In this document: piece by piece, positions 20 through 32,549 of the stretch | How the letters are laid out: each line of letters begins with the position of its first letter | How positions within the stretch are numbered: position 1 is the stretch's first letter | NCBI GenBank assembly: GCA_022705575.1 | Contig: JAKJED010000006.1 | Location: forward strand, 1 to 39,029 | Reading direction: 5' to 3' | Source of the DNA: Patescibacteria group bacterium | GTDB lineage: Bacteria > Patescibacteriota > Minisyncoccia > RBG-13-40-8-A | Length of the DNA: 39,029 nt | Notes under the pieces: generated by a model | What the model was told of the DNA's origin: nothing | Databases searched by the model: none | Seen by the model: the letters and a program-made list of their open reading frames with translations, nothing else | Translations under genes and position numbers: made by a program

Positions 20-712
20 CTATTCTAATACTAATTCTCTCATGCTACCTATTTCCATTTCTTTCAGCCACTTATTTATGCTTTGTTTATATTTTTCTTC
101 CCCGCCAAATATATCTAATAATAATTTCCTATCTGTTACTGAAGGAAAATTTTTGATATTCGAATAATCCATATGACTAGACCACCTATATTGATTTAAA
201 AAATTTATTGCCTTGTTATAATTATTTAATTTTCTCTCTCGCCATTCTGGAAATTCAAGATCCAATGGATTAAGATGAATATAATATGGAAGATTTAAGA
301 AGTGATTCGATTTGCTTACTAAAATTGCCTTATAGCGACTCTCAAAAAGAGTGCCCTTGCGTTTATGTTTTTGATTAAAATATTTCGCATAAGCCATATT
401 CAGTTTCTTCATAAATTTCGGAATCCCGTTTTCTGTTGAAGGACTCAATAATAAATGATAATGATTGGGCATTAGACAAAAAGCGTGAATATTCGCCAAT
501 AACTTTCTTAGTTCTCGTTTAATATGTGGACTTGCGATGTCCACATATTTATTCTGACTTTCAAATTTTTCAAGATTATAATGAGTCGTATAAACTACTT
601 TCTGATTATTAAGAACAAATAAATTATGAATAAACCTAAAATAATCTCCTTTATCAAGAAATATTTTCCGCTTGTCTACTCCTCTACTTAGTACATGATA
701 AATTTCACTCAT
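20..712 (-). CDS. REP-associated (IS200-like, Y1/HUH) tyrosine transposase
   Basis: Single-strand DNA transposase/nickase of the Y1 family (TnpA_REP type). The HUH motif is visible as MPNHYHLLL (His84 and His86) and the catalytic Tyr is expected in YIHLNP (about residue 143). FESRYKA is the usual conserved stretch between them. At 230 aa it has a normal length. I start at the Met of MSEIYHVLSRG rather than three codons upstream, because the second copy near 30 kb begins MAEIYHIL. The C-terminus is very similar to that copy (PSVTDRKLLLDIFGGEEKY shared). Residues about 55-64 are encoded by a perfect hairpin that recurs upstream of the gene. The 3' end is close to the window edge, so a left flanking hairpin cannot be seen. 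It appears intact. Confidence 0.9.
   Translation of the reverse strand: MSEIYHVLSRGVDKRKIFLDKGDYFRFIHNLFVLNNQKVVYTTHYNLEKFESQNKYVDIASPHIKRELRKLLANIHAFCLMPNHYHLLLSPSTENGIPKFMKKLNMAYAKYFNQKHKRKGTLFESRYKAILVSKSNHFLNLPYYIHLNPLDLEFPEWRERKLNNYNKAINFLNQYRWSSHMDYSNIKNFPSVTDRKLLLDIFGGEEKYKQSINKWLKEMEIGSMRELVLE
521..549. repeat. Hairpin inside the transposase coding sequence
   Basis: Perfect 11-bp inverted repeat (arms 521-531 and 539-549, core GTGGAC/GTCCAC) with a 7-nt loop TTGCGAT. It is translated in frame as roughly YVDIASPHI within the transposase, just before the HUH strand. The 19-nt core occurs again in inverted orientation at 745-763, between this gene and the upstream glycosyltransferase. 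Confidence 0.85.
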
Positions 713-744
713 ATTGTACATATTGTAAATTGTTAACTAAATTG

Positions 745-4244: not shown

Positions 4245-4252
4245 AATTTCTA

Positions 4253-4284
4253 ATTATTCTAATTAACCTAATTATTCTAAACTT
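4253..4284. repeat. 32-bp dispersed repeat, copy 1 (before the RNase HI gene)
   Basis: Reading the minus strand, AAGTTTAGAATAATTAGG and onward matches 27656-27687 (plus strand) in 31 of 32 bases. In both places the repeat lies directly before a start codon and in the same orientation relative to it (RNase HI here, rpmB there). It overlaps the recJ stop codon here. It contains TAGAAT, which could act as a -10. Confidence 0.6.
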
Positions 4285-27655: not shown

Positions 27656-27687
27656 AAGTTTAGAATAATTAGGTTAATTAGATTAAT
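27656..27687. repeat. 32-bp dispersed repeat, copy 2 (before rpmB)
   Basis: Matches 4253-4284 (opposite strand) in 31 of 32 bases. Ends 11 bp before the rpmB start codon. No other sequence in the 67-bp gap between the divergent M50 gene and rpmB looks like a promoter, so this repeat may carry it. Confidence 0.6.
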
Positions 27688-27698
27688 TTTTTTATTTT

Positions 27699-29510: not shown

Positions 29511-30197
29511 TTATTCTAAAATCAACTCTCTTATATCGCCTACTTCCATCTCTTTTAGCCATTTATTTATGCTCTGTTCGTATTTCTCTTCTCCACCGAA
29601 TATATCTAATAATAATTTTCTATCCGTAACTGACGGAAAATTCTTTTTACCACAATAATCTAAATGACTAGACCATCTATAATTATTCAAATACTCTATT
29701 GCGTTATTATAATTTTTTAACTTTCTTTCTCTCCATTCTGGAAATTTAATATCCAATGGATTTAAATGAACATAATACGGAAGATTAAGAAAATGATTAG
29801 ACTTGCTAATCAAAATTGATCTATAACGACCCTCAAAAATAGTTCCTTTACGATTATATTTTTTATTATAATATCGAACATAACCAGCGCCGAGTTTTTG
29901 CATAAATTTTATAATTCCTCCTTCTTTCATTTCACTTATTAGTAAATGATAATGGTTTGGCATCAAACAAAACGCATGAATATTAACTAATAATTTTCTC
30001 GGCTTTTAAAATTTTGGTCCTTCAAGGACGTAAGATTGATTTTTAATTTTTTGATTAAAATAATACGATAACGTATTAACAAGGCCTTCATTATTAAATT
30101 CAAATAAATCATGAATAAATCTAAAATAATCTTTATCATCTAAAAATATTTTTCTTTTATCCGTAGATCTATTCAAAATATGATAAATTTCTGCCAT
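29511..30197 (-). pseudogene. REP-associated tyrosine transposase interrupted by one in-frame stop
   Basis: Second Y1/HUH transposase, about 70% alike the first copy by eye. The reading frame is continuous from MAEIYHILNRSTDKRK (30197) to the end, except for one TAA at 30006-30008. The stop comes just after the internal hairpin (SYVLEGPKF-stop-KPRKLL), before HUH MPNHYHLLI and YVHLNP. Without readthrough the first product is 63 aa and lacks the active site; a restart at the TTG at 29966 would miss part of the fold. It may be a recent pseudogene or a sequencing error. It sits between the two halves of the ComEC system. Confidence 0.85.
30017..30029. repeat. Hairpin core inside the second transposase
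   Basis: GTCCTTCAAGGAC, the core of the flanking 31-nt palindrome, in frame in the coding sequence (peptide VLEG) at the position equivalent to the hairpin in the first transposase. Confidence 0.75.
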
Positions 30198-30208
30198 ATA
30201 TTATAATT

Positions 30209-31814: not shown

Positions 31815-32549
31815 TCAAATTCGCAATTCTACTTTATTAATATATTTCTCCAAGATTTTTTTAAATTCCTTTAGAGTATCATCCCAATACGGAACAATTT
31901 TTTCAAATTCTTTGTTTAAAACATTCTGATTTCTAAACTGCTGTAAAACATATTTTTTCACTCCTTTCAGCCATTTGCCGATTTTTTCAATATCCTGTCT
32001 CTCTACTATCCCCGGCACAACCGTTGTCCGAAATTCATAATTAATTCCAGATTTTTTTATTAATTCAACACTTTTTTTCACCCTGTTAAATATCTCACTC
32101 TGACGAGATCCCGCTACGCGGGATTTAACAGGGTAAATATTCCCCCTAACTACCTGTTCATACTTTTCCGGGCTCGTCTTAATATCCATAGCTATAAAAT
32201 TTAATAATTTTTCCTCAATTAGTCTTTCCAACATTTCAGGATTATTGCCATTTGTATCTAATTTTATGGAAAAATTTAAATCTCTAATTTTTTTTATAAA
32301 TTCCGGCAAATCAGCATTTATTGTCGGCTCTCCTCCGGTAATACAAATTCCATCAATCAAGCTTTGTTTAGTTTTTAAAAACTTGAAAAATTCCGTTTCT
32401 GAAATTTCTTCCTCGTCTTTTTTGATATTAACCAAACTAGGATTATGACAAAATCCACATTTAAAATTGCAGCCAGATAAAAATACTGTCGCTGCAATTT
32501 TATTCGGATAATCAACGAGAGTTAATTTTTGCAAACCCCCAATTTTCAT
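31815..32549 (-). CDS. nrdG: Anaerobic ribonucleotide reductase activating enzyme (radical SAM) with palindrome-encoded insert
   Basis: Uses a 4Fe-4S cluster and SAM to create the glycyl radical on NrdD. CNFKCGFC (C27, C31, C34) is the radical SAM CxxxCxxC; ITGGEPT is the SAM-binding GGE motif. 244 aa. Residues about 139-157 (YPVKSRVAGSRQSEIFNR) are encoded by a 55-bp palindromic element and have no counterpart that I recall in relatives, which pass directly from KYEQVV to the helix VKKSVELIKKSG. Reading frame is kept. 4 bp after nrdD. Confidence 0.9.
   Translation of the reverse strand: MKIGGLQKLTLVDYPNKIAATVFLSGCNFKCGFCHNPSLVNIKKDEEEISETEFFKFLKTKQSLIDGICITGGEPTINADLPEFIKKIRDLNFSIKLDTNGNNPEMLERLIEEKLLNFIAMDIKTSPEKYEQVVRGNIYPVKSRVAGSRQSEIFNRVKKSVELIKKSGINYEFRTTVVPGIVERQDIEKIGKWLKGVKKYVLQQFRNQNVLNKEFEKIVPYWDDTLKEFKKILEKYINKVELRI
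32080..32134. repeat. 55-bp three-way-junction palindrome inside nrdG
   Basis: Outer stem of 12 bp (32080-32091 with 32123-32134, ACCCTGTTAAAT/ATTTAACAGGGT). Filling it exactly, with no unpaired joining bases, are two hairpins: ATCTC/GAGAT (32092-32109) and CCCGC-tac-GCGGG (32110-32122). In frame and without stops in nrdG. Confidence 0.85.

Follow-up and report, generated by a model that had tools for sequence, protein, structure and literature searches.

A dispersed family of three-way-junction palindromes, one of them in frame in nrdG, and a GIY-YIG nuclease cassette as its probable parent

Palindromic elements have long been known from Rickettsia (Rickettsia palindromic elements, RPEs), and we know of no enzyme dedicated to their mobility. 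They are structured, about 100–150 bp long with CGTC at one end, and lie in frame in unrelated protein genes, where they are predicted to add residues to the translated protein (PMC10969869, PMC3733652). Bacterial REP palindromes are presumed to be moved by RAYTs (PMC3733652); these short palindromes are thought to be mobilized in trans by a gene with the same ends. MITEs of bacterial insertion sequences are short and non-autonomous, and have terminal inverted repeats in common with an autonomous element. A small nuclease gene is tied to a short structured in-gene insert in free-standing GIY-YIG homing cassettes and in the T4 gene 60 system; the bypassed insert of gene 60 is linked to a homing endonuclease, and short inserts are also bypassed in Magnusiomyces mitochondria (PMC5009743). 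Two GIY-YIG nucleases cut branched DNA close to its branch points: Slx1 accepts branched DNAs of every kind (PMC6902002), and ANKLE1 is branched-DNA specific and has been mapped on three-way junctions (PMC7610144). Both are repair enzymes outside mobile elements.

The stretch analyzed here, referred to as the window, comprises 39,029 nt of contig JAKJED010000006.1 from a Patescibacteria group bacterium. Its nrdG gene contains a perfect three-way junction without joining bases (Table 1). The original prediction of a 55-bp junction, with a 12-bp stem and two hairpins, was exact in both coordinates and architecture. RNA folding of the 55-base palindrome gives −27.1 kcal/mol (z = −5.64), and none of 200 shuffles is equally good; on the coding (minus) strand, where a G·U pair lengthens the outer stem, the value is −30.4 kcal/mol. 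A junction scan (outer stem at least 10, arms at least 4, no joining bases) returned the nrdG palindrome as its single match in the window, and no zero-joint three-way junction was found in 20 first-order resampled windows. Other repeats in the window are an exact 300-nt direct repeat near the contig end (37711–38010 and 38711–39010, 1 kb apart), which duplicates most of a small lipoprotein-like ORF, and a 33-nt inverted near-identical pair (97%; 4252–4284 and 27656–27688, 23 kb apart), possibly another small repeat family.

Table 1. Features of the nrdG palindrome and its host gene (window coordinates)
Feature	Position	Strand	Remarks
Three-way-junction palindrome	32080..32134	.	Outer stem of 12 bp, two arms of 5 bp, no joining bases
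Outer stem strand 1, ACCCTGTTAAAT, family terminal repeat	32080..32091	+	Exact in at least 122 distinct elements and in GIY-YIG cassettes
Inner arm ATCTC-ACTCTGAC-GAGAT	32092..32109	+	Arm sequence varies freely between copies, pairing kept
Inner arm CCCGC-TAC-GCGGG	32110..32122	+	Same arm, other loop, in the G004 nrdG copy
Outer stem strand 2, ATTTAACAGGGT	32123..32134	+	
Extended 15-bp outer stem TTTACCC...GGGTGAA, one G·U	32077..32137	-	TTTA/TGAA is the family's polar end signature
Element-encoded peptide YPVKSRVAGSRQSEIFNRV, NrdG residues 139–157	32079..32135	-	
Host gene nrdG2, radical-SAM anaerobic RNR activase	31815..32549	-	Frame kept

The host gene adjoins nrdD and encodes an NrdG2 protein (TIGR02495, E = 8e-68) in which 19 residues, Y139 to V157, derive from the palindrome. 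Alignment of the window protein with 15 relatives shows that the segment is missing from most of them; it is thus not conserved as protein in distant NrdG. Compared with the nearest relative, which has a native LNKI at the position of the element's terminal FNRV, the net gain is 14 columns at the site and 12 residues overall. It falls short of 19 because a native stretch of about 5 residues was replaced. The frame is unchanged, as had been claimed, and the gain of about 18 residues claimed with it was slightly too high. In an AlphaFold2 model (mean pLDDT 90) the insert forms a loop between helices 127–134 and 152–166, with pLDDT below 50 at residues 140–146, in line with the surface location that was expected. 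On our best reading, the element is tolerated in NrdG as a surface loop.

The NrdG of a genome from the same family but another genus (G004:C11, L256, locus start) also carries the element, with an identical right border (FNRVKKSVE). The two copies have one arm in common (CCCGC..GCGGG), whereas the second arm is unrelated and the left border different. In a poorly resolved NrdG tree the two proteins are sisters in 0% of 200 bootstrap trees. The pattern may stem from repeated insertion at the same site or from a single insertion followed by losses.

Placement was examined for 110 copies with enough flanking sequence. Thirteen lie inside genes, that is, within reading frames of at least 120 aa; 32 lie at gene ends or starts, and 65 elsewhere. 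All 13 intragenic copies preserve the frame, with cores of 41, 44, 50, 53 or 56 that are invariably 2 mod 3 in length and stop-free in frame, compared with 50 of 113 copies outside genes whose core length is 2 mod 3; since frame detection favors in-frame cases, this comparison is taken as supportive and not as a test. The encoded peptides read xPVK[SC]...FNRV in 11 copies and TLLN...YLTG in two. Besides NrdG, Pfam matches confirm TsaE and a class I tRNA synthetase among the hosts, and by eye further hosts look like KsgA, ThiI and dTDP-rhamnose reductase. One locus (L058:155-3913) encodes a tRNA synthetase of 1252 aa that matches a leucyl editing domain and, within it, a NUDIX domain; the gene also contains an in-frame palindrome. 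The proposed parallel with the in-frame insertions of RPEs is therefore borne out by 12 intragenic copies beyond that in nrdG.

The same copies bear on whether the nrdG insert is removed from the RNA, or skipped by the ribosome in a byp-like manner, so that NrdG is left unchanged. The bypassed inserts of T4 gene 60 and Magnusiomyces mitochondria offer a precedent (PMC5009743). Bypass implies a frame that is not kept through the insert, however, and here the insert is open and a multiple of three in every one of the 13 genes, although ORF detection favors such cases. AlphaFold2, moreover, fits the insert as a loop. Removal or bypass thus appears very improbable, and translation through the element, as predicted for RPEs, is preferred.

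Copies of the element are not restricted to nrdG. A second one in the same genome lies on contig C33 between rpsP and khpA, with one mismatch in the outer stem; the inventory of this genome is two short copies and one longer cassette. In all, at least 122 distinct short elements have the outer stem CCCTGTTAAAT/ATTTAACAGGG at their ends. They are about 30–60 bp long and come from Patescibacteria, Omnitrophota, Desulfobacterales, Cloacimonadota, Bacteroidota and other groups. The exact pattern CCCTGTTAAATN{8,38}ATTTAACAGGG is present in 9 of 379 genomes of the phylum and its reversed control in none, and a scan of about 85,000 genomes yielded at least 113 matching stretches. Most genomes with matches are metagenome-assembled, and lone odd phyla may reflect contamination. 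There are from one to dozens of copies per genome, and up to 108 half-sites compared with 0–2 for the reversed control. The palindrome therefore recurs as DNA both in its own genome and in others. Copies occur in CPR genomes, to which the original proposal referred, but the element is not confined to them.

Zero-joint three-way junctions are formed by 87 of the 100 elements with an interior of at least 20 nt, each called at p ≤ 0.05 against shuffles of its own interior. When 89 elements are aligned outward from the junction, the two arms occur in 83 and 79 distinct versions. Over the first five pairs of either arm, pairing is Watson–Crick in 92–100% of elements, figures somewhat inflated because the arms were selected for pairing, compared with about 30–56% for shuffled partners. 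Invariance of the outer stem is built in part into the search, but a degenerate search still recovers co-varied stems. This family of tiny dispersed elements is large and apparently undescribed: in the open-licence literature we found no description of the terminal sequence, or of such palindromic elements or MITEs in CPR bacteria, and matches to the terminal sequence were to primers and unrelated genes only, though a description may exist elsewhere. Flanking direct repeats are enriched (10.6% versus 0.8% at a score of at least 8), with variable offsets and an imperfect control; no fixed offset emerged that would mark a target-site duplication.

Some variants of the short form deserve mention. 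A Desulfobacterales genome (G399; L198–L215) contains a uniform 48-bp subfamily, GATTTACCCTGTTAAAT[CGGC..GCCG][TCTCGC..GCGAGA]ATTTAACGGGGCAGGGG, and also an 83-bp subfamily; the clade-A nuclease described below was not found in this genome. In copies from Nomurabacteria and other metagenome-assembled genomes (L146, L108, L162, L149, L073), additional imperfect inverted flanks, CGARTATA..TATAYTCG, lie outside the usual ends. These copies are perhaps a longer version of the element.

Could the palindrome be a conserved functional RNA or regulatory hairpin, such as a terminator, attenuator or processing site, and no mobile element at all? The strong RNA fold, the G·U pair on one strand and the position of 32 of 110 copies at the start or end of a gene would be compatible with such a role. 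But no Rfam family fits, the search giving only a sub-threshold microRNA match (E = 0.2), and a regulatory hairpin would hardly be expected in frame in 13 genes, in one to dozens of copies per genome, or in many phyla with invariant ends and unrelated arms. This explanation is scarcely credible, and the features cited against it fit a mobile element better.

A candidate for the autonomous form of the element is found in the same genome. On contig C11, TTTACCCTGTTAAAT...ATTTAACAGGGTGAA enclose a gene for an 84-aa GIY-YIG protein (PF01541; L010:1779-2033); cassettes of this kind are 280–290 bp long and hold one small GIY-YIG nuclease gene. Related nucleases elsewhere are bounded by the same or co-varied ends, the right end encoding a C-terminal LTG and the stop codon. 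The cassette itself folds as a zero-joint three-way junction whose two arm loops are taken up by the nuclease gene; L168, for example, runs outer stem, AATTTTAAATT..AATTTAAAATT, AAGATTTGAG..CTCAAATCTT, outer stem. Nine cassettes form zero-joint junctions with 20–29 arm pairs, compared with a shuffle maximum of 15 (0 of 200 shuffles in each case), and L239 and L243 have the same arms with 1–2 joining bases in an unconstrained fold. The arms co-vary between cassettes (L168 versus L171, L173 and L240). The nucleases of these eleven cassettes are monophyletic (clade A, with one member in this genome; support 89/95, 97% of bootstraps). In group B (three related cassettes) and clade C the ends are present and the arms unconvincing. 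A sister GIY-YIG clade (L244, L246, L247, L249, L250), whose proteins end in KRFLxLTG, has co-varied ends CCCCGTTAGAG/CTCTAACGGGG and unconvincing arm pairing; in G100, G094 and G108 the same ends bound short palindromes.

The invariant residues of the nuclease, Y5, Y16, G18, R26 and E62, correspond to the catalytic Y, Y-x-G, R and E. Its model (pLDDT 92) adopts the GIY-YIG fold and matches, in the PDB, UPF0213 and then Slx1 ahead of I-TevI; a sequence profile ranks these relatives in a similar order. Judged from the model, Slx1 is the closest characterized fold relative, with weak Foldseek E-values of 0.01–0.1; sequence identity to the Slx1, ANKLE1 and UPF0213 group of proteins is about 20–30%. 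Carriage by phages or plasmids was considered and rejected. Viral contigs are nearly devoid of the element, which was seen in one IMG/VR contig, and no relatives of the nuclease were found in phages (E ≤ 1e-12) or plasmids (E ≤ 1e-15).

Short and long forms have the polar end signature TTTA...TGAA in common, and their end variants match within single genomes. In G336 a CCCTGTGAAAT cassette occurs with two palindromes, both of the GTGAAAT type; in G215 the cassette is of the CCCAG..CGGGG form, and the palindromes repeat its mismatched pair. In a degenerate end search of 379 genomes, palindromes were present in five of the six genomes with clade-A cassettes and in 26 of the 373 others (Fisher p = 1.5e-5), where two of the co-occurrence genomes, G156 and G215, belong to one family and are not fully independent. 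At the level of sequence, then, the parent link is based on shared ends, a common junction fold, matched end variants, co-occurrence and dispersal of the short form, and the clade-A GIY-YIG cassette is the probable autonomous parent of the short palindromes. Most genomes with palindromes have no clade-A cassette in their assemblies (for example G117, G320, G337 and the Desulfobacterales G398–G400), so another enzyme may mobilize the palindromes, or they may be relics. A different autonomous partner was sought near unpaired ends in G396, G398, G399 and G400; these were mostly diverged palindromes, some of them mateless, and the 317-bp candidate L233 in G396 turned out to be a normal coding gene.

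The relationship could have arisen the other way round. A GIY-YIG homing gene might have invaded an existing palindromic repeat, its homing target or ancestor, and the repeat might have spread by template switching or gene conversion without the nuclease. Homing endonucleases are associated with small in-gene inserts, as in T4 gene 60 (PMC5009743), the palindromes are more widely spread than the cassettes, and snap-back replication could yield arms that change yet stay paired. However, the clade is monophyletic and has its arm strands and stop codon within the reading frame, which points to prolonged co-evolution, and the end variants of palindrome and cassette match within the same genome. 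We regard such an invasion as unlikely, and favor descent of the short form from the cassette.

A further possibility is that the palindromes are REPIN-like and are moved by a RAYT (Y1 HUH transposase) or another enzyme of the IS200/IS605 type, the GIY-YIG gene being a mere passenger in one copy. Two RAYT-like Y1 transposase genes lie in the window (20–721 and 29511–30200, the second apparently broken), RAYTs are the presumed movers of REP palindromes (PMC3733652), and many palindrome genomes have no cassette. Yet the RAYT genes of the window are bracketed by unrelated palindromes of their own (GTGGACTTGCGATGTCCAC; TTTGGTCCTTGAAGGACCAAA), and the element has neither a terminal GTAG nor a CGTC tag. 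What the element does match, in terminal repeats, junction fold and end variants alike, is the GIY-YIG cassettes, and a nuclease gene built into the fold across a whole clade is no chance passenger. Mobilization by a RAYT is accordingly quite improbable.

The nrdG palindrome is probably a MITE-like, non-autonomous copy of a mobile GIY-YIG cassette whose junction is recognized by shape, tolerated within its host gene; the mobility and the cutting are what we infer. In the scheme we consider most likely, the element would adopt the three-way junction, by extrusion or exposure, when its DNA is single-stranded or supercoiled. The nuclease may then bind its own extruded element at the conserved outer stem and the branch point and cut near the junction or the target, and a copy could be laid down at the new site through break repair or replication. 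Shape-based recognition would explain the combination of invariant ends with arms that are free but paired: because the junction shape and not the arm sequence is recognized, arms could drift or be rewritten as long as they pair. The nrdG insertion may have been retained for three reasons: its length is divisible by three, its PVK...FNRV frame contains no stop, and it lies in a surface loop ahead of a helix.

The element falls outside the RPE and REP families, since the terminal CGTC and GTAG tags are missing. Like RPEs it is inserted in frame (13 cases), but at about 30–60 bp it is shorter than the 100–150 bp of RPEs, and it differs further in its CCCTGTTAAAT-type ends (TTTACCC/GGGTGAA), its zero-joint junction, its presence in many phyla and its candidate autonomous partner. 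In contrast to REP and REPIN sequences, its partner is a GIY-YIG nuclease and no Y1 HUH transposase; among the RAYTs of the window, none with the same palindrome was found. Resemblance to MITEs is closer: the elements are short, non-coding and bounded by terminal inverted repeats, are dispersed in multiple copies per genome, and have ends in common with a cassette that is putatively autonomous. Unlike MITEs, however, they have a candidate autonomous element without a transposase, no fixed target duplication was found, and their interior is conserved in fold but not in sequence. The T4 gene 60 system differs in that here nuclease gene and insert have terminal repeats and a junction fold in common, and the insert is predicted to be read through in frame.

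It is possible, if somewhat doubtful, that these elements constitute a new class, in which a lone GIY-YIG nuclease, with neither transposase nor recombinase, recognizes the DNA three-way junction of its own element. Shape would then be the substrate, and junction-only derivatives of 30–60 bp would cross phyla and add in-frame peptides to conserved proteins. The family supplies a candidate mobility enzyme, a structural rule (three helices and no joining bases) and natural end variants, which make the link between enzyme and substrate testable in vitro. For annotation, segments of the form xPVKS...FNRV[KN] should be masked as element-derived, being no feature of a protein family. If the proposal is confirmed, a branched-DNA nuclease would drive a mobile element, and that element would supply new peptide segments to conserved proteins in bacteria with reduced genomes.
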